From: Massospora cicadina
Lineage: Eukaryota; Entomophthoromycota; Entomophthoromycetes; Entomophthorales; Entomophthoraceae
Assembly: GCA_022478985.1 (NCBI GenBank)
Contig: JAKSZP010013604.1
Coordinates: 1 to 64,000 of the forward strand
Direction of reading: 5' to 3'
DNA length: 64,000 nucleotides
Positions within the stretch are counted from its first letter, which is position 1; each line of letters begins with the position of its first letter. Below are positions 10,914-50,433 of the stretch, piece after piece. The notes under the pieces were generated by a model. That model had not been told where the DNA came from and searched no databases. It saw only the letters and a program-made list of their open reading frames with translations. The position numbers and the translations under genes are program-made.

Positions 10914-11589
10914 CTCTTGTCACTGAAGGTACATACCACACAGTATTCCAGAAGTAGCATACTTAGCAACAATTTGTAATAACTCTTGTTCAACTTCCCA
11001 AGTTCTGCAGATTATTTTGTGGGACAAGCGTGGGTTCTCATGGGTGATTTGATAAATGGGAATTGTTTTAAGACTTGTTTTGCAAGAGCATCCTTTCGGC
11101 TCATTTTTGCCTATATCATTTCCATTAAAAATGGCATTCTCAGGATTTAAAGGCAGAAGTCCTATATGATAGCGACTTGGACCTTGCTATTCATTACCAG
11201 AATGGTGACACCCCCTTCCTATGATGGTTTACCAAGCTCTGTGGAAGAGAAAACAATTAGATCACTAACCACAGATTATTTATCAATTTTTGACTCTGTT
11301 CTAGACTCTCAAAAACCCCAAGTTCCACAAATCCTGAGGGAAAATCAATGGTGATTACCGCTTTATTATAGTAAAATGAGTGTGTTTTCAGGAGCTGTAT
11401 TTATATAGTCTTCTCAGGTGAAACATCTCAGCCAAATAAATTGCGTCATTTATCAGTAACTCAGGGCTAAACCCACTAACCCTTACATTCAGCAATATAG
11501 GAATTTCAATTTTATCAAGGCATGCCAACCAGGGGACAGACAATACTGAAGCTCAAAGAGAAAAATAAACTAAAAATGTGAATTAAACA
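10914..11589. other. Decayed sequence, probably Gypsy-0 Gag/protease junction
   Basis: Only short open frames occur here and no motif is recognisable. Position suggests remains of Gypsy-0 upstream of its protease. The right limit is set by the 3' end of the family C element. Confidence 0.3.
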
Positions 11590-16990: not shown

Positions 16991-17029
16991 GTGGCTCCAT
17001 CGTAATCTTTTTATTTAACTTAGTTAAGC

Positions 17030-20000
17030 TGACCAGGGGAAGGGCATTACTGAGTATGTGTGGAAAACGAAGATAAGTAAAATTGGGAACCCCAGGGTAC
17101 TCAAGTTACCCCTGTTTCCAATGGAACTGCCAGGTATGTGGGGTTGATACACTACTCCAAGGGGGTTTCCCCCACTATGGAGCAGGTGTGAAGGAAGAGG
17201 TCTGTGCGGAGGAAACAAAGTGGGAACCACGTTACTATGAGCGCCTGTTGCCTTAAGCCTCATATATCCATAGAGCCAGGCTTGGAAGTGCTCCAGTAAA
17301 GTGGACGTGGAACCTGTTGATAACCCCATGGATGGTTGGGACCATGTCCTTGAACGCATCTAAGGCAATTGTGTGGATTGTCCACATTGCAATGGGTATC
17401 ATTAGGCAGCGGAGGGAATATGAGATTGGTGACTCGATCTGGAGTGCGAGGAGGCTCTTTGATATAGAAAATTCCTGTTCGTTTTGGAGCTTAAGCAGGC
17501 GGCGACTTCCTGCCATATGGCTTTGGTTGGGGGGCATGTTTCTAGGTGGTGATGTAGGGAGCCCTTCCCTCCACATACTACGCAGGTTGCGTGGAGGGAA
17601 TTGGAGCAGTCCGCTGTCCTATAAGTCCTTCTCAGACAGCTCCAGGCGTTGGCTCTTACCCTCAACTGTAAGAGTGGGTGGTGCGTCAATCTCCACACTG
17701 TCTCTGTGTGGGTAAGTCGTAGGGGATGTCCAACGCATCTAGGTAATTAACTCTAGTAATGGTTGGGTTCATAGCAAGCATGTCTCTCTTGGGGTGGTTT
17801 TCTGGATTTCTTAATTTTGAAGTGGGGGCTGGGTCGTCCCCTTCCCTGCACAGTGCCCGTATTCTCTATGGTCCATCCCATGCGGCGGATGGTTTGGAGG
17901 ATGCGTTTGAAGTGAGGAGGGGTTTCATGTGGGCCCGTTGCGGTAGGGTTTTAGCAAGTTATGATAGTAGTCTGGGTGGGCTATGTGGGTTGGTTAATTT
18001 GAGCGCCTGTGCGAAGTTAGTCCTTGCTGCCCTGGACCAGTGTTGTTGTGGGAGGTCTGGGTCAAGGACTTCTTTTATCCAGGTACCCAGGATGCGGTTG
18101 GTTTGGCTCTCAAAATCTATTAGTCTCACGCCTCCACTTGAGCGTGGTCCAAAGAGTGTTTCCATCCATATGGTAGGGTGAGATCCGGGCCACAGCTATC
18201 CCTGGATGAGCGCGCGATTTTGAAGTTATAAAAGTGGGTGAGAAGGCGATCGTGTGGGCAGGGTACAATAGTATTGGGAGGTTGAGTGAGTTAGCAACTG
18301 TTACTCGCTCATTAGTACTGAGGATCTTCCCTTAAGGGAGGCGACGCGGTTGGATACCCGTTGTAGCAGGTTGTTTTCCATTGTCTCATTGGCTTATCCC
18401 CCTGTTTCCAGCCATATCTCAAGGTGGCGGACAGGGGTGATGGTGGGAGATGATGTGAAGGGTAGGATGAGTGGGTTTTATTTCGTATGGGGGTGTGAGG
18501 TTCTGGTGTTGTAGCCCAGTTGTTAGTGTACTTGCCTAAGATAATGATTTCTGTTTTCCTTTTTTTAAGCGATGCATTGCTCACCATGGAGTATTCCTCT
18601 AGGGTGCGTTCCAGTTGTCAGGCATCATTGTTGTTAGATTTACCTGCCACGCAGTTATCCTCAAAGGCCAGTATCTTGACTGTTGGCTGTCCTTGTGCAG
18701 TTATGCCCATGAGGCGTGAGTCAGTTACGCGGAGGAGTGGATCAAAACTGAGACTATACAACAGTGGGATGAGGGGGTCCCCTTGTTTGAGCCCTCTGTG
18801 TGGTGTGATCTTGTTATTTAGGAAGCCAGGGCCGCATACAGCCATGGTTGCAGATTCTGTAAGGAGCATCACCCAGTTTATGAATCTGGATGGGAGTTTG
18901 AAAGCGTGTAGGCCTCCTTTAGGTATGGCCAACTAACGCGGTCATATGCCTTTTCCTGGTCTAAGAAGACCAGGGCTCCAGTTTTTTGGACTTACATATG
19001 TTTGCAACAGGGTGTATGTTGTTCCAGATTGAGCGCCCAGGTATAAACCCAAACTGGTTGGGTGACAGGACGTTATAGGATATTGCGCCTAATCGGCTGC
19101 AAAAATTTTTGTTAAAATTTTTGTGTCAGTATTGAAAATTGCGATTGGACGCCAGTTGGCCAGGTTTAACTTGTCACCCTTTTTATTCAATGTTATGACA
19201 TATGATTAATCGCTACCAGGTAGGAGGCATGTTTCCAGCAAGCACTGGTTCATAGACGCCAATAGGAGGGGGGCAATTTGCTGAAAATATTTTTTGTAAA
19301 ATTTGTAGGGTATCCCATCAAGTTCTGGGCATTTCCTACATGGCGCACCGCGGATTGTATCACAAGGCTCCTCCTGTGTAATTATATTAGTATATTGTAC
19401 TCTGGTGGTGTGCTTTGTATTATGACAATTTGTATATATTTTTGTGATCTTTTGTGGGTCTGTCGGTGTATTGTGGTATTGTTTGGTGTGATAGTGGTGT
19501 ACTTCCGCCTTGAACTCCTCAGGGTCAGTTGCCACAGTGCCGTCAGTCTTGCGGACTTGTGTGCATGTGGGCTGGTTGCTGCAGGAGTGGAATTAGTGGA
19601 AGAAATATGTCAAACAGGTTTCGCCTTCCTTTATGACCTTACCTTTGTTTGATACTTTGATTCTGTGTTGGTGATTGAAGATGAGGGTGTTTAGTTGGGC
19701 GGATATTTCCGCCCATTTGCGTCCCCAGTTGAGGCTATAACTGGGTCTAAGGGTATCTAGCTCAAGTTGGTCCAGTTCCACCAAGGTACGCCTGATTGTG
19801 GCTGTATCAGCGGTGTACTTACGTGATGCAAGATGTTGGGTTCTGTTGATTAGTTCCTTTTTAAAATTTTCCCAGGTTACAATGGGATCTGAAGTGAATG
19901 GGGCTGTAAATTCTGGGTTCATGGCCTTGTGTTTGACCCAGTCAGATATTTTGGGCAATTTTATGTTTTCTGGGTGTAGCTTTCTCCAGGGTGACACCTG

Positions 20001-20720
20001 TGCATGGGTTTGGGTTGGTGATAACTGCACTGCAACGAGTCGGTGGTCAGAGAAATTGACTTTTTTGTTGTAAATTTGGAAATTCTTGATTGTTGGGATT
20101 ACAGAACGAGGATGTGATTGATGTGTCTCATTGATATGAGCGCTCCCTCACATATGTTGGGCCATTTCATTTGGGGAAGGAGTGGTGATCATGGGGGAGG
20201 GCATCCTGTAGGCCAAGGGATGCCTTCATTGTGCAGAATTTGATGTGCCCCGGTGGGTATCCCCTGGGGTTAGGCCATCAGTCTGTCTCAGGGTTATATC
20301 AGAAGTTAAAGTCGCCCAACAGGATGGTATCTGGTGGGAGAGTGAGTGTTGGAAAAGTTTCAAGAAATTGTTTTCTCTCAGCTGTGGTGCACAGTGCATA
20401 GATGCATGCTATCAATATTGTTTCCTCTTGGTATGTGATCTTTGGTACTAGGACGCGGCTGTGAAGGTATGACGAGGAGTTTGTGATTTTTAAATTTTTT
20501 GTTATTTTGGACGATCACCCCACAGTGAGACATCCATACCAATTTTGATGGTGAGACCCTGGCTGACCAGGATCCTTCTTCCCCTTGTAGACAGTGGATT
20601 TCTTGGATGGCCAAGATGTCTACAAAGGGTTTTTTGCAGGAATTCCAGCTTTTTGGCTTGGGACGTTTGAGCCCTGGCTCCCGCAATGTTTAGCATCCCT
20701 ATTGACACTGATGTGCCTGC
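17030..20720 (-). pseudogene. LINE A-i ORF2 (endonuclease-RT)
   Basis: The endonuclease start reads MLNIAGARA, then VDILAIQEIHCLQG (catalytic Glu) near 20590. RT block 18618-18932 contains INWVMLLTESATMAVCGPGF and LKQGDPLIPLLYSLSFDPLL. The catalytic FADD is FEDN here, so RT is dead. The C-terminal zinc motif CVVCGGKGSLHHHLETCP is at about 17570-17600. The sequence is split among many frames. ORF2 would nick target DNA and reverse transcribe in place. Confidence 0.82.
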
Positions 20721-20739
20721 AGCGTATAAGGAGCAGTTG

Positions 20740-22110
20740 GGAGGGCCCTCTGGCCCTATCCCACCATGGCTCATTTTGGCCATGCTCCGCATCTGTACTC
20801 CAACTCTCTCAGTGACATTGTCAGTTCCCTTGATCTGACCCGATTTTTTGCAGGAATTGTGGTTTTTGGAATTTGCATTATCTTTTCCCGCACGTGTCTC
20901 ATGATGGCTCAATGTAGGGTGCTGATTGGGTTCTGTAATTTTGGGGTTCGAATTTGGAGAATTGTGCACTGCATTTTCGCCCATATTGCGGCTGAATTGT
21001 TCCTCAAAGTGTGAATGATTGATGTCTCTTGGTGACTCAATCAAGTTGCCGTGAAAATTTTCAACCTGGGCATATTGTTCTAATTAGTTGGCTCAGTGTA
21101 TATCCAAAATGTCCTCTTGAATTTGTCTGGGGTCGATGGATGATTCCACGTGCACCATCGCCTCAGCTGCTGCCTGCTTGCAGGCTTTTTGTGCCGCTTT
21201 GCGTTGTTTATGTGTAACTGGGTCCATGATGGAGTAAAGTCCATCTTCACCCCAGCAGTATGGGTGGTGGCCATTATCCTTCTGGCGAAGTTTTCTTTAT
21301 TTTCATCCATGGCTTCCTCACATTAGTCTGCTTCCATTAAGCCCTCCTTCATGGGGCATGCGTGTTCCTTGTGTTCCAATGAATAACAGTGGTTGCATGT
21401 AGGTGGTGCACATTCCGGTGTAACTTGGAATGCAGATGACTGTCCCCCATCTGCAAAGTGAAACTCTTCTGTGAAGGGGTTTCTTTATAAGTCATTTTCC
21501 ACTTTAGGGAATGGGTTGATTACGGCGATAGCTTTGCCTGTGCACATGGTTGGCATCAGGCAAAATTGTTGTAATTTGAGTTGCATAATTTTTCCATAGG
21601 CTAAAAGCCCTTTTCAGAGCTCCTCCTTGATTACCTTACGAGGAAGGTTGGTAGGGAGTGAGTTGAAGAAGATGAACAAAGTTTTCACTTTATTCCATCT
21701 GGTGCGCGCGGTGCACACTATATTTTTGCCCTCAGGAAGGGCAATTTTAGTGCAGATTTTTGCTGCAGCTTCGGCTTCTTCGGCTGTTTTGAAACCAATA
21801 TTGATCCAGCTGTGGCCCATGTTGTTGGTGGTGACATATACCACGTGGGGGAAAGGGAAGGCTGTTCCTCGCTTGTTTTCTCCCATAGGGTCAGGGACTC
21901 ATCCCCAAGGAAGATTCAGAGCCTGTGTTCCACCTTTGAAAGGGGTTTGTTACATTGTATGTACATGTATTGATCTTGTTTTATAGTAAATACCATAAAC
22001 CCGGACAGTGTCTGAGTTTGTGGTTTCTTGGCGGCTTGGGTTCCTGGTCCCCCTCCAGGGCGTTTCTTGCCCTTGGGTGCACCGTTTTACGCACCACTTG
22101 ATGCGACGCT
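20740..22110 (-). pseudogene. LINE A-i ORF1 (nucleic-acid chaperone-like)
   Basis: The open part at 21614-21886 shows WINIGFKTAEEAEAAAKIC and TRWNKVKTLFIFFNSLP, the RNA-binding-type fold seen in LINE A-iii. An intact knuckle near 21375-21415 reads CNHCYSLEHKEHAC (C-X2-C-X4-H-X4-C). A downstream low-complexity part (NHSHFEEQFSRNMGEN) reaches about 20740. ORF1 proteins coat LINE RNA. Frameshifts break this copy into at least three pieces. Confidence 0.75.
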
Positions 22111-22267
22111 CGCCCAGGTTGTATTAGATTTATTAATAAAATCGCCCATCTCTCCTGTGTGATTATCAAAATTGCTGTTCAAATCAAATTGTAGTAACTA
22201 AAGTGATTGTTACGGGAAAGAAAAAGCTCCTTAATAGCAATATTTTAACACTACTAAAAACTGTTAT

Positions 22268-29504: not shown

Positions 29505-29521
29505 AATAAAGACTGAGTAAT

Positions 29522-31427
29522 ATCTCTCTTTTGCTTCTATAACTAAATCAAAGCCAAGTTTAGATTTTTTAAAAAATACAAAAAATGACCGCTCAATCGA
29601 GCTAAAGCTTACCAATGTCAATGCCAATAATGCCTTATGCCCCAGCCTGGGGTTGGTGGTGCGCCGCCATCTGGCATCTTTCAGCCACCACTGAAGCATG
29701 GCCAGGATGGCTCTGCTAGCCCCCGTAATGCTACCAGGCGTTATGTCCCCCTTGGGACTTGGCCCATCATATTACAACTTCCCAGGCAGTGCTTAGAAGC
29801 CCTTTGGTGCTTCCATGAGCAATTTGCAAGTCGGCCTCCAGGTCAAAGATGGGAATCTCTTCCCATATGCAAATGTAGCCATCATTAAGATGGTCATGGC
29901 GGTGTTTTACCAGCCAGCTTTATTGATTTCCTCCCTTTTAAGGGATACTTTAATATCAGCTTTCATTCAGAAAGCCTATGCAGCTGCAGCAGCCAAGCTG
30001 CACTTTATTTTCAATAAGATTCCCATCCCAACCATTCAAACCTCGCTCCCATATGAGACCACTTTGGTGGTCCAAATCGCCAGGTTGCCCTCCCACCTTT
30101 GCCCCAGACGCCTCCACCATGAGCTCATGTTGGGTTTGGCCATTTATGGCGCAGACCCCATGTTGTAATTTGTGGTTCTGAATGGAGTGGATCGTTTGGC
30201 AGAGCTGAGCGCCTTTGCAACGATCTGCCCATTTCATCATGACACCCATCTCATGATTCCCCCTCGCATGTTGATCAGATCTGCCCCTGATCAACCATTC
30301 TGTGCATGCATCAAGAATGTCTGTTCCATTTGCCCCTTGTTCTTTGAGCTTGATCACTTGAAGCACAAGTGCCATGTGGCCTCCACCTCCTCCACTTTCA
30401 CCACTCCTCCCTCCGGTGTCAGGTTGGCGGCCATTTTGGCTTAATTTTTGAATGGGTATCAATCCTCTTGCCCCCAATCTTGGCAAATTCTAGTGATGTT
30501 TCCAAGGCGGCAGCCAATCAAAATTTTAAAAAATAATTTATTAACAATTTGACTGGTTTATTTGATCCTGAGTTGATGGCTGACTCAGTTTCAGCTGAGC
30601 TTCCGTGGTCAACAGCATGTGGCCAATCAGTTCTTGCCATTGCCCCAATTCTGTCGGCTGCCCCAGTGCTGGCTAATCCAATCCATTTGAGGCTCTTGAA
30701 TGGATTGATGAGGATAAAAAGCTGTACCATGTCAAGCCAGATTTCAATTTGGAGGAATTTTCGTTGATCCTCCTTAATTGTGGCCCCACTGTTTTCACTC
30801 TTTAAAAAGGTTTCCAATATACAAAAATAGTAATAAAAGGCCAGTCGAGGCCGCAGCTGCCCCTTCCAACACCCTATTTTGCCTGCAACTTCATGGGGTG
30901 ATGGAGCCTCTAGTTAAGGGTATTCCTATCCCCCAATTTTTCCCATGATTTGAGAAGGATGCAGAATATGAATTTGAGAATCTCGCTTTTGGTGTGAGCT
31001 GCACTTGCGTAGACATGGCAAAAACTTCTCTTTTTAACCCAAATTATCCCAAAACCTTCGTGAGTCAAGTCTTTTACTTGTGTGCCAGTTCTCATAACTT
31101 CGCTGAGCATCAATTTGCTCAAAACGTTGAGTCAATGGACACTGCTGAACTCATACAAAAAAAACCCCACAACTATACCTCCTAATGCCTCATGTCACTG
31201 ATGCTCACACCCCGATGCTGTCCACCATGATCTGCTAGCTAAAGCAGGCACTAGACAAAAGCATCTTTAGATCTTCCTTGCCTTCTGATATGTCTTCATA
31301 GGCTGTTAGCTGAGGTGCATATTTGGATTTTTTTATTTCTTGTAAATCCCTTTGTTTGGCTCATTTGCAAATAAAAAGGTGTGGCAGCTCCCCTTTTGGG
31401 TTGGGCACCACTAGTGCTAAAAATATA
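29522..31427 (+). mobile_element. Family C ORF1-only retroelement, copy C1 (best copy)
   Basis: The 1906-bp element is flanked by AATAAAGACTGAGTAAT (29505-29521) and AATAAATACTGAGTAAT (31428-31444), a 17-bp target duplication with one mismatch. It begins ATCTCTCTTTTGCTT, like LINE B (ATCTCTTTCTGCTAAG). It ends GGGTTGGGCACCACTAGTGC followed by an A-rich tail, like LINE B and copy C4. Its only product resembles a LINE ORF1 with a CCHC knuckle. There is no endonuclease or RT, and at this length no room for them. I infer a protein-coding passenger of LINE B. Confidence 0.85.
29600..31300 (+). pseudogene. Family C ORF1-like protein (frameshifted)
   Basis: A Met at 29586 opens the region. Conserved parts are IPTIQTSLPYETTLVVQIAR, LPSHLCPRRLHHELMLGLAI then YG (30040-30150, equivalent to the FLPKKVKRDILEQHL.DGLTIYG block of LINE A ORF1), and SAPDQPFCACIKN then CSICPLFFELDHLKHKC (30285-30375; C-X2-C-X7-H-X4-C). 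The C-terminus near 31195-31300 matches C4 (TPMLS..., QALDKS, PSDM.S-stop). At least three frame changes exist. It likely binds the element RNA. Confidence 0.7.
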
Positions 31428-31444
31428 AATAAATACTGAGTAAT

Positions 31445-32025: not shown

Positions 32026-32399
32026 ACTGAATCATTTTGACTTTTATCTCTTGTTGCAATCACTAATTGCAATAAATTCAATTCAATTCAAGAATAGGTA
32101 AGTTTGATAATCTCTTTGAGAAGATTAGTGTACCCAATGTCGGGTAGCAGTTTGGCTAGCAAAGTAAAGGACACAAGATCAATCTCCACACCATCCAAAA
32201 TTCATAACCGCCATAGCAACACCGGTGGCCTAGATAAAAAAGTAAAAACTGGCGCTTAGTACTTCCCTGGAGATTTTAGACTGGCAAGCAAAATGTAACC
32301 TGTTCATCAAAACTCCGAATTACCAGCCCCTGTCATCAGTGGATAATGGGCTTCTTTTTTTCCTGGATATTAATCAAATGGCGATTTAAGAAAAGTTCA

Positions 32400-33390
32400 G
32401 TGGAGATGTGCACAACCATTTACCGAAAGCAGTATATGTAGCACTGCATTCCATGACTTGTGGTTAGTTGGATCTCATGTTTGAAACAAAAGATGCAGCG
32501 GATGAAGCTGCACAGGTGCGTGTGGTGGTAGACCTCCCAGATGGTCAACATGTAGTTGAAATGAAGCACACTTAATGGACCAAATCATACCAATTTTTTG
32601 TTATGTTTGACTTCCTCCTCACAACAATTAAGCGCACAGTTCTGGAGCACCACCTCATGTTTTGCTTAAGGCATATGGGGAACTTCACTCCTTTTAGAAG
32701 CAACGTTTTACACTTATGCCAGACCTGCGCACAGGCAAAGTGTTTGCTTTGATCATCCTAACCATGGTCATTGCAGAAGACTATACTCAAAGCCCTCACA
32801 CAGCAGTTGTGTTTAATGATGAGCAAAAATCCCATCCGTTCCACATCACAGTGGATAGCGCACCACCTATCTGCACTTTTTGTCACGCTTTTGGCCACAA
32901 GGCCCATCCTGCCCTGACAAGGAGGGCATCATGCAAACCAAAATCCTTTCAAAATTGATGGTCAGTGAAGACTCCCATCATGAACTGGTTATTGACACTG
33001 ACACTGCCTTCCTGTGGGGCGCACAGGGGTGTTACATTCAGGTCAAAACTGTGTGCCCACAGGAGTGCAAGAAGGCCAGGTAGGCCCACAGAGCAGTGGC
33101 CTGGCAGCATTCACCGCAGCATCCGTATCCCACCTGCCCAGACTCAAGATGACATCCAGTCATTTTCTGTGGAAGCGATTTGATAGTCTAAGCACCAATC
33201 AGATTGGGCCAACCAACCTGATGAACTAATGAGTGAGTCTTATTTACCCAAGAAAACTTACCAAGCCTTAGTTAAAACCGATTCTACCACTCATTTCCCT
33301 CCAGAATTTTTTCACCTTTGTTGGTGCACAGCAGGAGCACAGTATCTCAAAAATTTGGCAGAAGTCTAATTCCTCCAAAAACAAGAAACA
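32400..33390 (+). pseudogene. LINE A-ii ORF1
   Basis: It is similar to A-iii ORF1: MPDLRTGKVFALIILTMVIA (32716 onward) and VDSAPPICTFCHAFGHKAHP near 32850-32900. These show a knuckle whose last Cys is lost to a small frameshift. A later frame reads TDTAFLWGAQGCYIQVKTVC, the same region as AFPWGAQGCYLLVKPISPQE in A-iii. Inactive. Confidence 0.75.
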
Positions 33391-33539
33391 TACCAGAAAA
33401 GTTGATAGTGTCCTAAAGGACCGCTATGACTAAACTGACTCTATTGCTTCCCACAAACGTTCTGCCATGACACATGTTTAAACTGAGCTGAAGGATGGGA
33501 AAGGGGCCCTTCCCATAGTATCTAAGGTGCAATGGGGGA

Positions 33540-36082
33540 GCCTTCACAATAGGGACGTTGAAAATTGCTGAACTCAAGGCCTCACCATCCCAGGCTAAGA
33601 AACTGAGCTTTTGTAAAAAAATTACCTGTAAACATCCTGGCCAAACAGGAAACACACTGTCCACACGGTGCCAAAGAAACATGGGCAACCATGCTCCTCC
33701 CCTCCCTTTTATTTGTCACCACACTAGGGTGCTTATACATGCGACCCATGAATTTAATTTTATTTCTTGGGGTTTGTACCTCAATGGCCATGTGCTTGTA
33801 GTGTCCTTTTCATGAGACAACGAAGCGCACGCGATCATTAATATTTATGTCCTGACAGGTGTTTGGGATTTCCAGGAATTTCTCTAGGCCATTACTTCCC
33901 TCCCACTTCCTTTAGACCCATTTGAGGTGGGCAACATGAATTGCTGGGCCAAACCATCCACCAATCATTGGCCTTCTGCGCCTGCCATCCACAGGAGCAC
34001 ATAAAACTTCACGTTTTAAAAGCCACTTTTGGGATGTTTGATACTCTACATAAACATGCACCGCTGCTCCCCAACATGCCCTGTCCCCATGTGCACAACG
34101 GTCAGCTGAGGTCTATGTCATGCATTGACCTTATTCTTGCCCCATTGAACTATTGGTCTCAGGTTGCACACTTTATGATGACGAAATTTGATTTCTTTGA
34201 TCACATGTTGGTGTCAATTTCCTTCTCTTTGTCACACACAGCGGTACAGGTGCCAAAGTGGTGCTAACTTCGTTCCGCCAAGATCACGTCGCACAGGTTT
34301 TCCTCATGGGTGGACACCAAAACTTTGGCACTGGAGTTCGCCACACCGTTCTTTGCAGACCCACTTACTACTTGGTCAACCTTAAAAGTAAACGCCATCT
34401 GCCAGGCATGCCACCGCTCATCATGTTGCTCTCAGTCTGCCTCAGAGGTCATTAAACGCACACTTGCAGAAGTGGACCGCCTGGTGTTTAATCTCCCTGC
34501 AGTAGGTTACATCCCATCTTGGGGTCTCAAGTGGGCAGAGGTGTCCACTCGCCTCAACGCACTGGTAAGGCAACACAAACATTGCAAATGTGTACAGTAC
34601 ACAGAAAAAGATATAACTATGGGTGACATGTGCTCCACCTATTTTTTCAAAAATTCTTCACGCCACGACAGTGCTTGGCTTGCACACAGGTGAGGCGGCC
34701 AAACCACTCCATTGCAGAAACTCCATCCAAAGTGATAATCGTAGTTCAAAACTATTACTCTGAATTCTATTACTCTGATACAGTTGAACTGGCCAAAGTT
34801 GAAGAATTTTATGAAAGTTCACATATCTGCTCCATTTCCCATATATTATAGCTGATGAATTTAATTTCTTAGGGAAAACTCTGGTATGCAATTTACGGTT
34901 CACCACACAGGTAATGCCCAGGTCCAGATTGGATTCATTATAATCTCTATAAGAGATATTTAATTATTTCTCCTCTTTGTTGCTAACCTCAATGAACCAG
35001 TGTTTGTTGGAAACGCGCCTCCTTCCTGAAGCCAGGAGGCGTACACTATAACGCTGTATAAGAAAGGGAATAAGCTGGACTTGGCTGACTGGCGCCTCAT
35101 TTCACTTACTAACACAGATACTAAGTTATTTACTAAAATTATGCTTAACCACCTAGTAGAAGTTGCCTCTGATATAATCACCTCTGATTAATTTGTTTTC
35201 ATTCCCAAGAAGTTTAAATGGGACACCATACACACTGTAGCCACCGTCTGACTGTCCACGGCTACTGGAGCACTTGTTTTCTTAGACCAGCAGAAGGCTT
35301 ATGATAGAGTCAAGTAAGATTACCTCAAAGCCTGCCTCTACAAGTTCCACCTTCCACATCAATTAAATAATTGGGTGACGTTGCTTATGGAAACTGACAC
35401 AATGGCTGTGCGTGGCCCTGGATTCTTCATGGATGTGGTTCACCCTTAAAGGGGCCTCCGCCAAGGGGACCCTTTAAGCCCATTATTGTACAGCTCCAGC
35501 CTCGACCCACTTTACCACAATATGAATGCCCGCCTTACCAATGTCCATGTGTAAGACCAAGCACCAGTTAAGATGCTGGAAGTTGCTGATGATTGTTCTG
35601 TTGGGGTGTCTAACAACCAAGATGCATACGCACTTATGGCTACTATCCAGGATTACTCCAGGGTAAGTGAAGCTGCACTTTACGCCTCCAAAATCAAAAT
35701 TATCTTCCTCAGTTAATTTTTATCCTGCTGGTCACCAGAACCCCATTTCCTACCTGCTTCAGCAGCTAGCTCACGGTTTGCTTACCCTGCCCACCCCATA
35801 CACCCCGCTTGTGCTCCCTTTCATGCCAAGACCCACTGTTGGTCCAGTACAACATTTGGGTGTTTGGCTGAAGGCGGGAGGGTACACCTCTTTAGCGATG
35901 TAGCACCATATTCTGGACAATGTCACAAAACGCATCTCTTCCCTCAGAGCCCACCAGACACCCTCCCAGGCAGGGTTGTGCTCACCAACTCTATGCTCCT
36001 GTCCAAAGTCTAGTTTGTGGCCCGTGTTACTGCTTTTCCCCATCTTTCTTCACCTTATTATACGCAATCATATAAGGGTGGC
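33540..36082 (+). pseudogene. LINE A-ii ORF2, 5' part
   Basis: The endonuclease start (LKIAELKASPSQAKKLSF) is at 33558. RT occupies about 35050-35720: LADWRLISLTNTDTKLFTKI, GALVFLDQQKAYDRV, LRQGDPLSPLLYSSSLDPL, and the catalytic box VADD where the family has FADD. Several in-frame stops interrupt it. The frame is cut at 36082 by the Gypsy-2 LTR. Confidence 0.83.
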
Positions 36083-37174
36083 TGTCAAAATCTGAGGATC
36101 TCTGGCTGGGAATTAGTTATCCTGTATGTTTATTTGGGCCAAAGTTCCAATGGTTGATCCTCAATAGTGCCTGTAGCTTATGGGATTTATACCATCTAAA
36201 AATTCACTAGGCTTATAAAATTCGCCTCAACTCTTCCAGATGATTTTGGGCGTAATTTTCCCTTTGTATTTGGAAACTTCTTCCAAGGCAGGATTTAATA
36301 CAAACTGGGGATTCAGTCCTTCCAGTTTGTCAACACTTCTCCAAGGTTAGGATAAGAACTAAACCAGGAAAAAAATAAAATAAACATAATTTTTATTTAA
36401 GCTATTTGTTAGATAATTTTCATAAGGCCAGGCGCCAGTATTAATATCTCTAGGGCATCTCCTGGCCACAATTCAGCACAAAATTTTAACAGCTATTTTA
36501 CACTCAATTTGGCCTACAACTTAAACCTTTTCTTAGGTTCATTGGTGGCAAAATATTCTCAAAATTGGGTGATTTCAGGTACAAAAATTGCGATAAAAGC
36601 ATGCAAAATTGTCCTAAGATCTTTTGGATTTAAGTTTTGGCATACTGCTGATGAGACACACCTTTTGTGAAATTATGGCCTCAATTGAAGTAAATGATGC
36701 ACCCCTAATTGGGATGTCAGCAGGCCTCTTCCTCAATGGCACTAGGTAACCACTTTTGGGCAGTCCACGAAAGTGCTATTGTGTCAATTACGCGGATTGA
36801 CATACGAATTTCGTCCTAATCAGGAAATTGATTATGTTTTTTGTTTGTCTGAAGTCCACAGGATTTTCAGACATTAACTTCGGGTCATCCCCAAATTATT
36901 TTGTATACAATTAAGTTGATTGTGCTTCCAATAATCTGGACCAATTGCCAAGATACAATGCCTAGAAAATTGGCCATAATATGTGAGCATATTCAGGCTG
37001 AGTGCTTTGCTAAAATACTTGATTAAATTATCATTGAGATGTTTAGCCCAAATTGTATGATTGAAATAGGCTTTGAGGTGAGAATATAGGTGTTAGCTCA
37101 AGCGTTGAAAGGACAATCGCCTAATCTGATGGTTGTCAAAGGCTTGTTTTTGAGTCAACCACCAGAATCTGACA
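36083..37174 (-). repeat. Gypsy-2 3' LTR
   Basis: It aligns end to end with 43602-44696. Long identical blocks occur (for example ACTGGGGATTCAGTCCTTCC near 36320 and 43830), and other blocks differ by 10% or more. LTR boundaries are exact because the LINE flanks are known from other copies. Confidence 0.92.
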
Positions 37175-37407
37175 TTCCCCCTCTTGACTTGAACATAAAT
37201 CCTATGATTCCCAATTAGCCTATGTTTTATTTTTATTGGCCTGAAAGCCCAAGGAGAATGTGGTTGTTTTTTTATGTGGTACCTTCAGCTGGAATGCCCA
37301 ATGAGTCTGAAGTATTATGGACCAAATGCCTGTCAAGTTTGAATTTGGATCATCTCCCAAACCTCAAGTGAGAACTAAAGTATTTTTTAGAATGAAACTA
37401 TTATATA

Positions 37408-37475
37408 AGTATTTTTTTTGTTTTGTTTTTGTGTTTTTGTGTTTTTGTGTTTTTGTATTTTTGTGTTTTATATGT
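37408..37475 (+). repeat. G-T5 microsatellite
   Basis: An imperfect 6-bp repeat of GTTTTT lies inside Gypsy-2, between the 3' LTR and the integrase end. The plus-strand Phe/Val/Leu/Cys-rich open frame over it is an artefact of the repeat. Confidence 0.85.
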
Positions 37476-37731
37476 TTTTTTCACTTTTTCTTTTCATCAG
37501 CCTACCTATTAAAACTTCTTAAGAATTTTGCAGGAATTGGTTTATATGGCCAGTCCTAATATCCTTGATTGTGTATATGAACTTAGATGTTTCCTCAATA
37601 ACTTTAAATGGCCTGACCCAGATGCGATCTAACTTTTGCATTTGGCCCAATCTGTGGGTGTTGCAAACTAAAAATTCATTGTTAACTTCAAATTTGGCCA
37701 GTGTATAGCGATAACCTAAGTCCTTTTGATG

Positions 37732-38525
37732 TCAGGCCTTTTTCTTGACAAACCTGTTGTCAAAGTCTTGGGCTTGTAGTTTGATTAAGACATCTGCAAG
37801 CTTCTCAACGTACTGAGGGTAGGTGTTTTTGCCAGGATCCTCTAGGGCCAGGTATAGCAGCGTTAGTATGGCTGGGTGTCTACCATATAATACTTGAAAT
37901 GGAGACATCCTGGTTGATGAATGGTAGGAGATATTGTAGGCAAAGACTTCCAAACTTAGATATGTACTCCATTCAGATGGTTTGGCCAAGGTTAATTTTT
38001 GGATAATGTTCACCAAACATCCCATTTGCACGCTCAACAGTCCCATTAGTTTATGGAGATAGGGAGAAGAAAGCACACCTTGTACTCCCATTAGTTGGTT
38101 GAGCTTGGCAAGGACATTGGCGGTAAAGTTGGTTCCATTATTAGTCAGAATAACCTGAGGGCATCCATGTTTGTGCGTAATGTTTTCAAGTACGAACTTG
38201 GCGGTTGTTGCCGCTCCAGATTCCCAAATAGCCTTGGCTTTGATCCATTTGGTTAAGTGGTCGATGTCTATGATTATGTACTTGGCCTTCTTATTTTGTT
38301 GGAAGGAGCCAACAACGTCAATAAATACAGTGTGCCAGGCAAAGTTGGGCTGAACAAACTGTTAAGATGTGCATTTTCAGAATGGTTTTTCTCCTTGGCA
38401 CTCTGCACAGCATTCTAGCGTTTCTTGGATGTCAAAATGCATTGACTCCCAGTAGTAGAATTGTTTCAGATGCTCTTTTGTCTTCTTGAATCCGCCATGC
38501 CCTATGGTCTTATGTGCTGCCATTA
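37732..38525 (-). pseudogene. Gypsy-2 integrase
   Basis: The HHCC finger is intact at 38404-38525: HKTIGHGGFKKTKEHL then ECCAEC. The core follows: IIIDIDHLTKWIKAKAIW (first Asp), VILTNNGTNF (second Asp now Asn), and VFAYNISYHSSTRMSPFQVL with YGRHPA. Frameshifts exist near 38090. The active-site change means no catalysis. Confidence 0.85.
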
Positions 38526-38699
38526 TTAGGACTGTTTAGGCCAATGGTCTTGGAAAAGTGAACTTTTTGTCCTCAACGATATTGTAAAGTGTCCTGTATT
38601 TGATGGTTGTTTTTTGTAGATCCAATAGTATTTTTGGATGGATTTAAGCTCATCCTGATACTCTCCGGTGATCATTTTCATAAACAACTCATTGGTGGC

Positions 38700-39200
38700 C
38701 TGACTAAGTGTTGCGATAGTTTGTAGTTAGGATAGAAGGTCAGCATTTTGGTGTTTTGCGCCCGCTTGATGCTTAATGGTGTAGTCATAGGCTTGAAGCT
38801 TCAATGCCCAGCAGGCTAATTGGCCCTCAGGTTCTCTTAAGTTATTCAACCATCTTAGGGAAGCATGATTGGAAAAAACTTTAAAATGAGTACCATGAGG
38901 GTAGACCCAGAATTGCTTGCAAGCATATATATCAGCTAAGCATTCTTGTTCCATCACCGTGTAGTTTTTTTGTGAACATTTAAGGTCCGACTAGCTAAGG
39001 CAACTAGATGTTCTTCTTGTCTTCTCCGACTTGGGATAACATGGCCCCCACTGCTGTTTGGGATGCATCAGTTTGGACAATAAATTTGTGATCAAAGTCT
39101 GGGTATTGAAGAACAGGTGCGCTTAATAGGGCTGATTAAAGTTGGTCAAATGCATCCTGGCAAGATGCGTTCCAGTCATTTGGGACCTTATCTTTAAGCA
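38700..39200 (-). pseudogene. Gypsy-2 RNase H
   Basis: The 76-residue frame 38727-38957 has QECLADIYACKQFWVYPHGT, HFKVFSNHASLRWL then NNLREPEGQLACWALKLQAY, and ends AGAKHQNADLLS, the RNase H C-terminal block. The N-terminal TDAS-like part is near 39080 (IVQTDASQTAVGAML, with frame loss). Confidence 0.85.
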
Positions 39201-39990
39201 GATATAAAAGCGGCTCTCCAAGTTGTGCGAAGTCAGTGATAAATCAGCAATAGTACTTGATCATGCCTAGGAATAGTTGAATATCGCTCTTGGATTTGGG
39301 ACATTTCATTTTGGAGTTTGCATCCAACTTAGAGGGTTGGGGCCAAAGACCCACTTTATCAATCATAAATCCGAGTTATTCCAGTTGTTCTTTAAAAACT
39401 CAAATTTTCTGGGCTTGAATTTTAATTTTGCAGCGGCTAGCCTTTTGAAAACCTCCTCTAAGTGTTCCAGGTGGTCGTCAAAAGTGCGGCTGAAAAAGTT
39501 GATATTGTTAAGGTACACTAGTACACATGCCAATTCTAAATCTTCCAGGATTATGTCTATTGCCCATTAAAATGTGGCTGGGGCGTTGCAGAGCCCTTGA
39601 GGCATTCTCATCAGCTGGAATAGGCCCTCTTAGGTTATGATTGCACATTTCTTGCGCTCCTCTTTGGTAAGATCTATTTTCCATTATCCGCTGATAAGAT
39701 CCATTGATGAGAAGAACTTCGTTCCCCTAGCCTATCCAATTCATTATCAATTTGTGTCAGCGGGTAAAAGTCCTTCTTTGTGATGTTATTTAACTTCCAA
39801 TAGTCAATGACTACTTGCTTGCTTCCATCCTTCTTCTTCACTATTAAAATTGTTGCGGCCCATGGACTTTTTGAAGAGAGTAGCATGCCATAGTTGAGAA
39901 GTTCCTTATTTCCTTGTATACTGCTTCTTATGATAATTTTGAGCGTCTAATTGGGCGTAATTGAATACGTTTATGATCTCCTGTATTAAT
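39200..39990 (-). pseudogene. Gypsy-2 reverse transcriptase
   Basis: The 39674-39886 frame holds SPWAATILIVKKKDGSKQVV then IDYWKLNNITKKDFYPLTQI, RT motifs 1 and 2. Near 39580-39620 the opposite strand gives RMPQGL.NAPATF in the minus reading. The catalytic Asp boxes are in broken frames. Confidence 0.82.
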
Positions 39991-40566
39991 TTTGTGGGTG
40001 ATACCATTAGCACAACCCAAGTTGAAATCATCTTGTACAAATATTTTCTTAATATTTAGAGAATAATTCTTGAGCTTGGCCTTTCTCAGAGTTGGTCAGG
40101 GTGCTTAAATTGTCCATAGGGACAACATTATGTATGCTGAGTTGGTTTTTATCAGGGATCCCTATTTTGACAAAAGTTCCAAACTCCTGGAATGAGTGAA
40201 TTTCCATGATAGGAAACAGATGCAGAAAAGTGATTATTTGATGTCACCTGATGGGAATGGGCTGATTTTGCAGGTTTGCACATAAAATATGTATTTCTAC
40301 ATGTCCCAGAATGATTAGACCAGGAATAATGTATGGTTTAAATTGAGATTTAGATCATGGTTAATAAAATTCATCGTAAAGTCCTTCTGTGATATTAATT
40401 GTTAGTCCTGTCAGGACGATTACTTATTCTCTGAATGGTATAGTGATGGTCTTATTTGATCAAAGTTGAATGCCATTTGGCTCATTAATATGAGTTGGAA
40501 GTGGTTTTATCATTGACCGAGCTTTGGAATATTCAATTGGGATGACCCCAGCTTTGTAAGCCAGAT

Positions 40567-41122
40567 TTATGCATAGGCAGGGTTTTTTTTCAACTGCCTT
40601 ATCACGGTTATAGTAAAGTGGGATAGCCTGGCAAGAATGGTGAGAGTATCATCCTTATGATTGGTAACAGCTCCATATCTTCTTAGGAAACCAGTCCTAA
40701 TTAGTATATCATATTTTGTATCTGGCAACACTATGGCAGGTGCTGTTGCTACAATAGATCCAAATCTGAGTGGTAGGGTACTGTAGGTGCCCAGCAATTT
40801 TGGTTGTATGCGCTCCAGCAATTCCATATTCCTGACAGTGGGCAACATAGGGCGCAATTTTTAGATTTTTAACCAAGTTTGTGCTGACTATATTGATATG
40901 AGCATTACTATCAACAATGGCCCGAACTTGCACCTTATTTACTGCTATATCCACATAAGTACATTCAGAGTTGTTTTCAGAGATATTAATTTTTGTGAAT
41001 GCTGTGATTGCTGCCAATTCCAGGTGTGATTTCAGGCTTGAGAAAATATCTGGTAAGTTATCTTCTAAGGTCTTCATGGGAATGGCTACTTGAACGTCGT
41101 TAAGTTTAGGCAGGTTGGTCAA
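40567..41122 (-). pseudogene. Gypsy-2 aspartic protease
   Basis: The minus strand shows YVDIAVNKVQVRAIVDSNAH then INIVSTNLVKNLKIAP. The active site is DSN where family members have DSG/DTG. In a second frame (40567-40857) the distal part reads YDILIRTGFLRRYGAV, matching the ILGMDFL..Y.A type of end. Placement between Gag and RT is as expected. Confidence 0.8.
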
Positions 41123-41439
41123 GCATCTGGGTTGGAGGTCTAAACCCTGGTCAATAATCTGCTTTGCATAGGGTTTTGATAATTCAGTTTGGGCTTCCTT
41201 GGTAATTTTTTAGGTTTAATTGCTTTTTCTGTGGCTCAGATGTGACCATCATGACATCATTAGCCACAATATGGTGGAGGTTATCTTTAGCAACATATTT
41301 GGCCCTAAGAATTTCATCAGGGTCAGGTGGAACAGTTTAAAAATCGGTGAAGTTAGAGAATTCCGCATTTACTTCACTTTCTCTTTTCCCATCTCATTGT
41401 CACTGTTGATTTCCAAAGCAAAGTTGACCTCATGCTTTT

Positions 41440-43560
41440 TGTTGGACCATCTGAAGCATTGTCCAGCAAAATGCCTTGTTGAGCGCAAATGTGGCAAGTA
41501 TTTGGCCCTGTTCACTAAAGTTTTGCTTGAATCTTTGGTTCATATTTTTGGAATTTTTCTCCTGGTTGAACATCATGCTGCTTTTTGGGCCCAAAAATCG
41601 AGATTTTACTGATCTTTGGCCCGATTATGTGTATTAATTATGGGAACAGCTTCTCAAGTAGTTGGTAAGCTCTTGGATTTCCAAGCTTCCATTGAAGGCA
41701 GGCAACATAACATTGTGCAGTTCAAGAAAGGGCATAATCGCATCCTCCATTGCAATCTTGGCGTCAAACTTATCTATTGCATTGCACCCACACAGAACTT
41801 GTGCCTTCTGGAAAAATCTATCCACAAAGTCCTTAATAGTCTCATTCTGTTTGAATTTAATAATAAGAAGCTCTCTTTTTTGGGTTTCTAGTTTCTCAGG
41901 CGTTCAAACTGTTTTGTTATTGAAATTTTGGCATCCATGTAGGACCAATTATCGCCCAAATAGGGCATAATGAGGTCACAGCTATGGGCATCAAGTGAGT
42001 TAATCAGTGCTGATCCTTTTTCATGGTCTGATGCTCTTTTTATTGCTTTAAAAATAATTTGAGGAAAGAGTGACCGTTTCCATCCTTATTATACTTTGAT
42101 AAATTCTTTGGTTTGAAGTCATCTCGCCCTATTTCAGGCATAGGTGTTGTACTTCTTCTTGAGCGTCTTGGTGTATCATCGCCCATGATTGGCCCTCTTT
42201 CCTGTTGGGAAGTATCTGGAATCAGGATTGATGCTAGGACTCTAGGCATAGAAAGGATGTTCAAAATATCAGTTTCTGCATCGGTGTCAACTTCTGATGA
42301 TTCAATTTCATGATATTGCTCCAAACTACTAGATTTTAACATCTGAATTTGGCCCTTAGTTACTTTCCCATGCTGTTTTTTGGCCAGATAAGCAGAGCTT
42401 TTTCCTTTTTTTTGTCAAAGTTGGGCGAGCATTGGCAACCTTGCTCTTTGTGGAATTCAAATTCTTTTTTAAGGTTTTTGTACTCTTCTTTTAATAAAGC
42501 TTGATTGGTTTTTAAGCTTTTTATCTTTGTCCATACTATCTCCTCGGGAATTTGCAGTTGATAGCTGAATTCTGAGTTCCCAATTTTCCTAAGTAACTTC
42601 AGTATTTCTAGCCTGCAATCTCGACACCACAGTCCAAAGTTTAGAAAATTCCTCTTTGATCTGGTCACCTTCATCTCTATTTGAGATGGCTGGCTTTGCT
42701 TCAAGGTCTTTGAAGTTTTTGTTGATAGTATCCAGCTCGGCCTGAACATACTCCAAAGCCATCAACTTTTACATTTAACTCCAAGTGATTTCTTTGGCCT
42801 GAAGTGGCCTGTATGGTAAGTCGTTCTGATTGAGACAATAGGTAATCTGAATGGCTTTCCAGTTTTTGACAGCGGTTATTCCTAGTTTGTACCCATTCTT
42901 TTGATAACCCATGGTGTGCCAGAACTTCTGCGGCTAATTTCAGGACTCCTTCATTCAGAAGCTCCTCAAGGGAGTTTAATCTCCCATGAGCTTCATTGGC
43001 AAGTCCCATATTATCAACAATTGCTTTTCAGACTTCAGCAAAACTGGAATTTAGCTTGTCCAGTAGGGAATTTCAGGAAATTTGTTCCTCCCCTTGCACA
43101 CGGTAGATTTCCAGATTTTGTCTAGCAATTATTCGCTGGGTATGCTTAATTGAGGATTGAACAAAGTGAACCAGGAATTCATTGGTTGCTTGACTGTCTG
43201 TGAGATGTTTGGCAAGAGATGCCATAAAAGTGTCACGGTACTTCATATATATCTCCATCTTTAGTGCCTGATCCTTAAGGTAGTAGAACAGACTGAAAGA
43301 AAGATCAATTTGTGAAGTACCAATCCTAAAACCCGGATATAGGGTTTCCAGCTTACCTTTTATGCTTGAAGATGTATGATCAATCAGGCTGATTGCATCT
43401 GCATGAGCTCCCCCACTGTGATAAGATCCAGGTAGTAGGAGGTACCCACTTCAGAGCCTTGACGGCTGGTATTAAAATAGTTTGAAATTTCCTTATTTCT
43501 GGTTTTCATCTCATTGTCGCTTTCTCATCTTGCTGATGCTGCCAGTAATTGGTCATGGGA
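41440..43560 (-). pseudogene. Gypsy-2 Gag
   Basis: Open frames at 43073-43258, 42701-43009, 42360-42749 and 42040-42342 follow one another on the minus strand. Acidic and serine-rich text (LEQYHEIESSEVDTDAETDI) and a Lys/Glu-rich, probably coiled-coil part (NQALLKEEYKNLKKEFEFHK) are seen. Near 41455-41500 CHICAQQG then HFAGQC forms a C-X2-C-X4-H-X4-C knuckle if one missing base is allowed. Confidence 0.7.
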
Positions 43561-43601
43561 ATCCATCTTATAAATGTAACTGGTCTTGAGTGAGCACCAG
43601 T

Positions 43602-44696
43602 TGTCAACATCTGAGGATTACTCGCTTGTAAATTGTTATCCTGCACGTTTATTTGGGCCAAAGTTTCTATGGTTGATTCTTAGTAGTGCCTGTAGTTTCT
43701 GGGATTCGTACCAACTAAAAACTCACTAGGCTATAAAATTCACCTCAACTCTTCCAGTCAATTTTGGGCATAATTTTCCCTTTGTATTTGGGAACTTCTT
43801 CTGAGGCAGGATTTAATACAAACTGGGGATTCAGTCCTTCCAGTTTGTCAACACTTCTCCAAGGTTAGGATACAGAATAAAAACCAGGAAAAGGATAAAG
43901 TAAATATAGCTTTTATTTTAAGCTATTTGTTAGATAATTTTCATAAGGCCAGGCACCAGTATTAATGTCTCTAGGGCATCTCCTGGCCACATTCCAGCAC
44001 AAAATTTTAACAGCTATTTTACATTCAATTTGGCCTACAACTTAAACCTTTTCTTAGGTTCATTGGTGGCAAAATATTCTCAAAATTGGGTGATTTCAGG
44101 TACAAAAATTGCGATAAAAGCATGCAAAATTGTCCTAAGATCTTTTAGATTTAAGTTTCGGCATACTGCTGATGAAACACACCTTCTGTGAAAGTTTGGC
44201 CTCAATTGAAGTAAATGATGCACCCCTAATTGGGATGTCAGCAGGCCTCTTCCTCAATAGCACTAGGTAACCACTTTTGGGCAGTCCACGCAAGTGCTAT
44301 TGTGCCAATTACGTGGATTGACATACAAATTTCGTCCTAAGGCAAGAAATTGATTACGTTTTTTGTTTGTCTGAAGTCCATGGGGTTTTCAGATATTAAC
44401 TTTGAAACGTCCCCAAATTAACTTGTATACAATTAAGTTGATTGTGTTATGATAGTCAGGAACAATTGCTGAGATACAATGCCTAGAAAATTAGACATAA
44501 TATGCAAGCATATTTGAGACAAGCACTTTGCTAATATACTTGATCAAATTATCATTAAAATGTTCACAAAAAATTGTATGATTGCAATAGGCTTTGAGGT
44601 GGTAATATAAATGTTAGCTCAAGCATTGAAAGGATAATCATCCCGATCTGATGGTTTTTGAAGGCTTATTTTTGAGTCAACCACCAGAATCTGACA
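43602..44696 (-). repeat. Gypsy-2 5' LTR and primer-binding-like site
   Basis: LTR TGTCAACATCTGAGG...CTGACA. Inside it the minus strand reads ACTGGTGCTCACTCAAGACC (43582-43601), nearly the same as 57064 (TTGGTGCTCACTCC). Confidence 0.92.
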
Positions 44697-45888
44697 GTGA
44701 ATTTGGTTAGGTCGCCCACTGTCAGTGCTCCTGGATGTCATGTTTGGCCCTCACCATAGTGGTAGTATGGGCCTGCTCAACTTCGAGGTCCATGTCACCA
44801 AAATACTTGGCATCTGGGTTGTTACGGTCATTAACCCCACATTCTAAGCCCAACACTGGTCATGTGTGGCCACTCCAAGTTTTCCCACACCCTGGGCCTC
44901 AGCAATCCTACCCACCCCCACTCTTTGTTAAACTATGTTGCTTCACATCCCTCTGCTACAGGCCCCATGGGACGTCGCCCCACTTCAAACAAATTCTCCT
45001 CCGCATGCAGAGCGCTGGATAGAGAAATGGCATCAGTGGGCACACCGCCCAAAGAAGTCGCCCTACTCCACGCTTCAAACAGGAAGTACAAGTCTTAGCT
45101 GTTCTGAACATTTTGATACCCAGGAGGTCCCCTAACATGGCCATAATTAAATATCTGGACATGTTGGACATCCCATACTCCCTAGAAACCCAGAAAGACA
45201 TCTAAAAGTACACACCCTTTTATGCAGCCACAAGTTTGTTCTTATTGTGACGCTCCTTGAAACGGGTATACTGTTTTTCCAAGTGATCAAACAAATCACA
45301 CTCCTCATGTGTTGTGTGTGACCAATATGGGGCACTAGTCCACTGCCTGGAAGAGTGATCACCATCAAAAGTGATCTGGTGCGTGGTTCAGCATCTTTTT
45401 TTCCAGAAGCAAACACAGACCTTCAGCCTCTCTAAAAACATCTTCGTCCTGCTTTTAAATCCCCTATACAACCTTCCCTCCAAGCCTTAGTGGTGTCAAT
45501 TGCTATGTGGACTATCCACACGATTGTCTTGGATGCCATTTCAGGCTATACTTCCAACCTCTAGGAAGCTGTACGCCGATTTCAGTCGTACCTATTGACC
45601 ACTTTCAAGCATGGTTGTTTGGTTATCTACCATTCCATCAACGACAGTTGGTCTCATCCTGGTTTCCAGTATGGTTCATCACTTCATAATCTTTCCTTCA
45701 TACGTGCTCAATAGTGGTGCAAGCCTCTACTCATGATACCCATCTTCCTTTATTTGGCGTTCCCACTGGCAACAGGAGACCGCATTAGCTCCTCTGGGTG
45801 CCCCTATCGCATATTAGTGCTTGATTATTATTACATATTAGAAGTGTCTATCTCATGATCAGCCTTCCCCAGATAAAAATTAAAAATA
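44697..45888 (+). pseudogene. LINE A-ii ORF2, 3' part and tail
   Basis: The sequence picks up directly after the LTR with HVWPSP.W-type text equal to MFGPHHHGGMGLLDFKAHAA of A-iii. It goes on through SHQNSPPHAERWIEKWHQWA (44935 onward) to the C-terminal region DYPHDCLGCHFRLYF (45507) and ends in an A-rich tail at 45888. All frames are broken. Confidence 0.85.
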
Positions 45889-46330: not shown

Positions 46331-46870
46331 CAAAATGTAAAGCCTTATACTGAGGAGAAGGTTGATATATAATGCTGTGCGGGATTTGATCTTCCAGCTA
46401 CTCAAATGGTTCCATAAATCCTAAATTAAGGTGTTAGCTACATCAACAATTTAAGTTTCAAATTCAGAGTATTACCTGAATTACTCCAAATTTGGTTAAT
46501 AACCATTTTACAATTACTTGGAAATAAATCACCCTATTCCAAGGCCACATTCACACAAATAAATCATCTATGGCCCAAGGATCCCAATATTTTCATCAGA
46601 TTTTCATTCTGGAAGCTAGCAAGTTAGACCTCTAAACCTAAACTATTGGAAGAGCTCCTAATTGAAGTTAACACCAATTTAACAGATTTTTGAAACAATT
46701 ACATGTTTAAAGAAGCTCAGCTGAATTTTTATGTTTAATGCAATGATGGACAAACCACTTGGGAATTAAGAATGATCATTCAGTCACTACTTTATTCCTA
46801 TTTTTTTTAGTACTAGATGGTCCCAACCCAAGGGGGATTCATCGATGTTTATTGAATTACGCCTGGGCTC

Positions 46871-49800: not shown

Positions 49801-50397
49801 GTGACGCTGACTGGAAAGCTCCTCCATCATACTGGATCCTAGTCATGCAACCTAGGCCAGACGCGGAGGGTGGAAGCGCATCTATAAAGCCACTCAGGCG
49901 AAGGAAATCCTGGAGGCGACTTGATCCAGGGCGTTCCTTTGCTGCAGGGGGGTAAGAGTCACGGACGCGACTTATGGTTGTGTTGAAATCTCCTAAGAGG
50001 ACTGTATTCCGTGGGAGATTGAGTTGGAGGAGCTCTTCCAAGAGCCGATTTTGCTCTGACCTGCATTAGGCAGGTAGATGCTTGCAGCGAAGAAGGAGAA
50101 GTCAGGAGTGGTGAGTTTGGCCAGTATGAGGCGGCCACCTAGATATTGTGAAAAAGAATGGGTTTTAACCCGGGGATTCAAAACAATAAGGGCGGCATGG
50201 TTTGTCCAGAAGGAGTTGCCTCCAAACTGTTCATTCCATGCAGATTGTTCGTGGGGGAGGATATGGGGCTCCTGGACAGCAGCGATGTCAATTTGTGCTG
50301 ACCTGAAGTTTTGGAGGAGGCGGGCTCTCCGCTTAAAGTCCCGCAACCCATTTGCGTTGATGGATTGCAGGGCCAGGGTGCTGCCATGGGGACTCAT
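46871..50397 (-). pseudogene. LINE B ORF2 (endonuclease-RT), few frameshifts
   Basis: Endonuclease: INANGLRD, IDIAAVQEPH (catalytic Glu), VLLGDFNTTI, SRIDMALI and LSDHRSLIV, all the expected APE motifs, from 50397 to about 49700. RT: LANWRPIALINTDHKLFTKL, LLDMEKAYDRVAWKYIDASL, GLRQGDPLSPFLFNITLDPL at about 48400-48860, and an intact MAFADD near 48330 in an adjacent frame. The C-terminal zinc-type motif CPRCVEPIDSHLHRFFTCPG is near 47280. Frame changes occur near 50000, 49040 and 48320, so full-length translation is blocked. Confidence 0.9.
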
Positions 50398-50433
50398 ATC
50401 TGTTCCCCTCCATGTCCTGGGGGTTGCCAGCGC

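Follow-up and report, generated by a model that had tools for sequence, protein, structure and literature searches.

Two sister families of protein-coding, enzyme-less retroelements in Massospora cicadina with 3' ends resembling different LINEs

Two element copies, C1 and C2, lying in a 64-kb window of Massospora cicadina DNA (the window being the whole stretch that was analysed, which is rich in transposable elements) belong, with a probability we put at roughly 0.78, to two sister families of non-LTR retroelements that are non-autonomous, code for a protein and have used two helper LINEs. Both families have the same architecture, a 1.9-kb unit with fixed ends that encodes one protein, and each ends like a different complete LINE, a sequence pattern which suggests that an ORF1-coding lineage without its own endonuclease (EN) and reverse transcriptase (RT) borrows these enzymes and has changed its supplier. 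The published M. cicadina genome is 1.488 Gb in size (PMC9584336), and an eLife study of the Entomophthorales describes a LINE expansion in this species, the passages of it available to us naming no such elements (PMC11105155). The literature accessible to us (titles, abstract beginnings and some passages, with subscription papers thinly covered) also contained no description of such elements in fungi.

Copies, ends and insertion sites

C1 is a full-length copy on the forward strand at 29522..31421, and its ends and length are common to the 29 other copies of its family that we fetched. It is flanked by a 17-bp target-site duplication (5' copy AATAAAGACTGAGTAAT at 29505..29521, 3' copy AATAAATACTGAGTAAT at 31428..31444, both on the forward strand) in which 16 of 17 bases are identical and one is mismatched, in agreement with an earlier note on this window that had described a duplication of this length. 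A DNA search of the 1.47-Gb assembly with C1 returned 13,860 first-look candidates, the best 40 of which were scored and 30 fetched, C1 included. Full-length matches, running from query base 24 or lower through 1900 or beyond, made up 36 of the 40 scored; since whole-length matches rank first, this search says nothing on the share of truncated copies. The fetched copies start at query base 1-4 in 26 of 30 cases and stop at 1900-1906 in all 30, with matched lengths of 1878-1918 bp, and their insertion sites are dispersed, target duplications being supported in 18 of the 30 by a shuffle test (p < 0.02). Within the family, copies are pairwise 0.78-0.84 identical and form a star-like tree (internal length 0.24 versus terminal length 3.59), reflecting an old burst from sources that resembled one another.

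No EN or RT was detected inside the match at any of the 30 fetched C1-family loci, C1 included; as a positive control, the same queries do pick up RT in three LINEs of the window, D, E and F, all of them decayed. LINE pieces were seen in the flanks (up to 1.5 kb) of two of these loci. The earlier note had proposed that C1 lacks both enzymes and that it represents a real coding family of fixed length with many copies rather than one deletion product, and both proposals are borne out, the second by the full-length matches, the narrow range of lengths and the constrained ORF described below.

C2 is a full-length copy of the second family and lies on the reverse strand at 11508..13463 (the lower end is approximate), with a 3' tail of LINE F/E/D type at about 11503-11573. 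The best 40 of 7,074 candidates from a genome search with C2 were scored and 30 fetched, C2 included; the other 29 are 67-73% identical to C2, 20 of the 30 qualified as full length, and none of the 30 loci had EN or RT inside the match. Target duplications reached p < 0.02 in two of the 15 C2-family copies tested. L046 and L047, two of the fetched copies, are flanked by the same sequences, possibly because one insertion was duplicated, and in L058 a reverse-oriented C1-type tail stands directly after the match, where one element seems to have inserted at the end of the other.

Two further copies in the window are 5'-truncated: C3 (23399..23646, forward strand; profile match E = 1.7e-65) belongs to the C1 family, and a fourth copy (55116-54480, reverse strand; E = 2.7e-56) belongs to the C2 family. 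The first of these upholds the earlier listing of C3 as an additional copy, and our fourth copy may be the C4 of that listing. C2 had also been described as nearly as long as C1 and as having a homologous protein; the lengths do agree closely, and the two ORFs are indeed homologous and colinear.

The Massospora gene model P0002, itself partial, aligns piecewise with C1 and C2 at about 46-58% identity, and a search with it matched LINEs F, E and B, in that order. That a gene model was annotated from such a sequence could be taken to mean that C represents a family of host genes with an ORF1 domain, either retrocopied or domesticated. This we find scarcely credible, because the copies are star-like at 78-84% identity and have defined ends and target duplications, and because P0002 itself seems to merge pieces of more than one copy.

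The reading frame and its conservation

The C1 family has a single ORF of about 575 codons, which in C1 lies at 29585..31301 (forward strand) and is broken by stops and frameshifts; it was traced as the frame with the fewest stops over 30 copies. The long ORF opens with an N-terminal part, followed by the ORF1 core, the CCHC knuckle and a C-terminal region for which no relatives were detected. One frame has the fewest stops over majority columns 127-1005 and another over 1005-1782, an ATG stands at column 63 in 21 of 30 copies and a stop at column 1787 in 29 of 30, and the frame is uncertain up to column 127 and through a hypervariable A-rich stretch. We did not take up a two-ORF structure (ATG at column 932, stop at 1032 in 26 of 30), because the frame changes within the A-rich stretch, which measures 80-100 nt among copies, and both sides are in frame in 9 of 30. 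In the C2 family the majority frame is broken into several parts, so that this family may have either one ORF or overlapping ORFs.

The earlier note had called the product a knuckle protein. The knuckle of C1 itself (30322..30372, forward strand; CSICPLFFELDHLKHKC) is degraded, whereas an intact form, CPLCFNLDHLKCKC with the spacing C-x2-C-x4-H-x4-C, is preserved in L017, a C1-family copy with 305 open codons. Pfam scans of three C1 frames, the first 304 residues of C2 frame f0, C2 frame f1, three family copies and two database proteins found no EN/RT, RRM or knuckle, returning chance-level names alone (E 0.14 or more), and a PDB search with the L017 ORF gave no match. We presume the core to be RRM-like, as in ORF1 proteins in general; an AlphaFold model of it from a four-row alignment had a mean pLDDT of 38 and was set aside. 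The best protein relative of the C core query was an M. cicadina protein (48% over 39% of the query).

For the selection test in the C1 family, a column counted as shared when four or more copies carried a variant there, and expectations were derived from base and CpG context with 2000 permutations. Shared variants are distributed over the three codon positions as 141/113/198 versus 154/144/154 expected, the third-position count being reached in 0 of 2000 permutations, and private variants as 152/176/149; an earlier frame assignment had given 134/120/192 shared and 159/159/148 private. Shared transversions had no significant third-position excess. The C1-family ORF was under purifying selection, and the enrichment of shared variants at third positions, which private variants do not display, fits selection during spread followed by neutral decay. 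The raw counts for the C2 family are 157/125/182 shared and 158/154/111 private.

Constraint is also visible between the families, which were compared as majority strings of 30 C1-family and 20 C2-family copies. Their protein alignment spans the whole ORF (score 907 versus a maximum of 54 in 40 controls) at 42-45% identity, with 56% in the N-terminal part plus core and 34% in the region after the knuckle. Differences by codon position number 111/80/175 (P = 3e-9) in a nucleotide-guided count that covers about 347 sites per position in C columns 43-1001 and 1670-1809 only, and a protein-guided NG86 estimate over 548 codons gave dN 0.52 and dS 2.6, which is near saturation. For the single copies C1 and C2 the nucleotide-guided third-position count gave P = 0.04; a dN/dS calculated from protein-selected pieces of these two copies was dropped (the null gave the same third-position share). 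Purifying selection on ORF1, as expected of a half-LINE, is thus found both within the C1 family and between the two families.

Tails and ORF1 cores compared with the LINEs of the window

LINE B (46806..53242, reverse strand), which we propose as the helper type of the C1 family, has an ORF1, an endonuclease (weak Pfam match) and an RT, and is flanked by a 17-bp target duplication without mismatch. The best relative of its ORF1 is an M. cicadina protein (91% over 73% of the query), and this ORF1 contains a tandem duplication of ~377 bp (51980-52354 and 52357-52732; 96%) that is absent from the Massospora protein P0001. LINE F (17004..22232, reverse strand) is decayed, with its tail at 17004-17053 and an ORF1 core match at 21718-21347; LINE E (57246..62578, reverse strand) has its tail at 57246-57294 and its core match at 62065-61694. 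LINE D (32040..45884, forward strand; tail 45844-45884) is split by direct repeats (36083-37174 and 43602-44696; 1.1 kb, 89%) that look like the LTRs of an element inserted in it. Further direct-repeat pairs at 3784-4338 and 9261-9819 (78%) and at 14265-14821 and 26183-26738 (82%) are possibly LTRs or repeated elements.

The window also holds micro-insertions of about 20-36 nt that comprise the LINE B tail only and lie between target duplications of about 14-17 bp. One of 36 nt lies inside C2 at 12899..12934 (forward strand; 14-nt duplication AAAGTGTTTTTTCT), and others are found at about 23370-23390 (forward) and 56045-56067 (reverse). At 23.4 kb the target sequence is present three times, and C3 adjoins the micro-insertion.

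The 3' tail of C1 (31388..31421, forward strand) is of LINE B type. A tail profile built from the final 130 columns of 30 C1-family copies and run against the 64 kb had its best match outside the C copies at the very end of LINE B (46838-46804, minus strand; 37 nt, E = 0.003), and also found a LINE B micro-insertion (E 0.1). The C2-family tail profile, built from 24 of 30 copies (the other six, which ended early or had no recognised tail motif, were left out), matched the very ends of LINE F (4.6e-7), LINE E (2.9e-4) and LINE D (0.008), in addition to C2 and to the fourth copy at 54.5 kb. When the four LINE ends were scored alone, the C1 profile found B and not E, F or D, and the C2 profile found F, E and D and not B. 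Folding of three tails was no better than shuffles, giving no sign of a tail hairpin, and exact tail patterns were absent from viral contigs (two patterns) and prokaryote contigs (one pattern), sets which may omit this genome. Given the shortness of the 37-nt match between C1 and LINE B at E = 0.003, one might attribute the tail matches to chance or to old common descent of short 3' ends, the true mobiliser being a LINE unrelated to B, E and F; this is improbable in our judgement, as the matches sit at the extreme termini of the LINEs, neither tail profile finds the LINEs of the other, and the match to LINE F reaches E = 4.6e-7. The helper of the C1 family may nevertheless be some LINE other than B.

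These profiles also bear on the possibility that all C copies are LINE B passengers, for which one could cite the tail of C1 and the start of C2, where 16 bases are equal to the LINE B start. However, the C2-family profile leads to F, E and D and not to B, and LINEs D and E begin similarly too, so that we give this possibility very little credence. The description of the elements as passengers of LINE B, and the shared 3' end on which it drew, therefore fit C1 but fail for C2, whose sister family has the E/F/D-type tail. The same 5' start as LINE B, claimed as well, is not diagnostic, LINEs D and E having similar beginnings and the C1-family 5' profile missing LINE B at E up to 10. Thus, where many ~1.9-kb copies with LINE B ends and a constrained ORF had been anticipated, the C1 family agrees in length, 3' end and constraint, but not in a diagnostic 5' end.

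The ORF1 cores present a different affinity from the C1-family tail. Against the LINE ORF1s the C1-family core profile gave E values of 8.3e-6 for LINE E, 2.4e-4 for LINE F and 7.9 for LINE B, and a frameshift-tolerant comparison of the majority core scored LINE E at 101, F at 81, B at 57 and D at 54 (control maximum 48). The C2-family majority core likewise ranked LINE E at 108, F at 83, B at 68 and D at 61 (control maxima 48-50). Contrary to these family data, the single-copy C1 core ranks LINE B first (B 61, F 54, E 46, D 44). Among the window LINEs compared, ORF1 and 3' end of the C1 family accordingly point to different LINEs by the core profile (E/F for the core, B for the tail) and to LINE B alike by the single-copy C1 core. 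The ORF1s of the C families and of the LINEs are all related, those of E and F coming closest in the family data, and the C1 family seems to join an E/F-like ORF1 to a B-type tail, in keeping with the earlier suggestion that the ORF1 of C1 is foreign to LINE B.

Downstream of the knuckle, the C1-family region is not above shuffles when compared with ORF2 (30/120 and 117/120 shuffles reach the score), and the C2-family region is marginal (5/120 for LINE E, 15/120 for LINE B, and 1/160 on a restricted LINE E stretch). Post-knuckle matches to LINE E ORF2 with scores of 54 and 67 were rejected, being partly out of frame and either within triplet-shuffled controls (C1 family, 30/120) or marginal (C2 family, 5/120). 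We also rejected the reading of C1 as a LINE B that was truncated at its 5' end or lost an internal part, since its post-knuckle region has no match to LINE B ORF2.

Both families could in principle have arisen by internal deletion from an autonomous LINE with the same ORF1 plus EN-RT, still present elsewhere in the genome, and could be moved by it in the way that HAL1 is moved by L1. HAL1-type origins recur in mammals (PMC5753468), and the best 40 candidates were scored in each genome search, of 13,860 and 7,074, which leaves room for such a parent. We nonetheless hold this origin to be unlikely: EN/RT was found in none of the 60 fetched matches (30 per family); the post-knuckle region, which is conserved between the families, has no ORF2 homology above shuffles in the C1 family and a marginal one in the C2 family; and the families differ in their tails, so that a single parent LINE does not explain both. 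We therefore retain the reading of two sister families with two helpers, the difference in tail between them arguing for a helper change.

Proposed mobilisation and comparison with known elements

Trans-mobilisation of the C families, like every functional statement made here, is something we infer from sequence. An element transcript would yield its own RNA-binding ORF1 protein, which would coat the same transcript in cis, and a LINE with a matching tail would supply, in trans, the EN-RT that starts reverse transcription on the element tail. The EN-RT donor would be of LINE B type for the C1 family and of LINE F/E/D type for the C2 family. That the ORF was conserved speaks for a protein acting on its own RNA, and cis coating would in turn explain this conservation. 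The lineage would then be the coding counterpart of a SINE, having acquired the tails of different helper LINEs over time.

The helper of HAL1 is L1, and SINEs are short, pol III-derived and non-coding. HAL1 (half-L1) of mammals is a non-autonomous LINE derivative that encodes the ORF1 protein only and has no ORF2 (PMC5753468, PMC4859970), and it was derived from L1 (PMC5753468). The C families resemble it in being ORF1-only, without EN/RT and present in many copies, as the 36 full-length matches among the 40 scored for C1 illustrate. They differ in that the C1-family core is nearer to LINEs E/F and its tail is of B type, whereas parent and helper of HAL1 are both L1, and also in their extra conserved C-terminal region, in the tails of different LINE groups carried by the two families, and in their fungal host. 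HeT-A of Drosophila telomeres has one ORF (ORF1) and no RT and is served by TART (PMC4700185). The C families are likewise RT-less and have an ORF1/gag, but HeT-A inserts at chromosome ends, whereas C copies lie inside contigs with clear target duplications in 18 of 30 C1-family copies; head-to-tail arrays at chromosome ends were not found among the C copies, which are placed by contig. Tail-sharing SINEs have a 3' tail in common with a LINE and are mobilised in trans (PMC3747384). The C families also share 3' tails with LINEs, but they are 1.9 kb long with a long constrained ORF, and tRNA and Rfam scans of the window gave no match.

Our best reading is that the lineage works in the manner of HAL1 or HeT-A, coding but enzyme-less. 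At about even odds, we would go further and see in it an old, self-contained gag-only retroelement lineage that forms its own clade and has survived by 3' tail exchange, its sister families being served by different LINEs, and whose conserved C-terminal region may adapt the element to a foreign RT.

The ORF1-only passengers known so far are those of mammals and flies, where they derive from, or partner with, one given LINE. Here, we have an ORF1-only lineage whose protein was selected through at least two families and whose 3' ends match different LINEs. It would offer a natural test case for why an ORF1 protein of its own should be conserved in a passenger, that is, for cis action on its own RNA, and for whether the 3' tail alone determines which RT is recruited.
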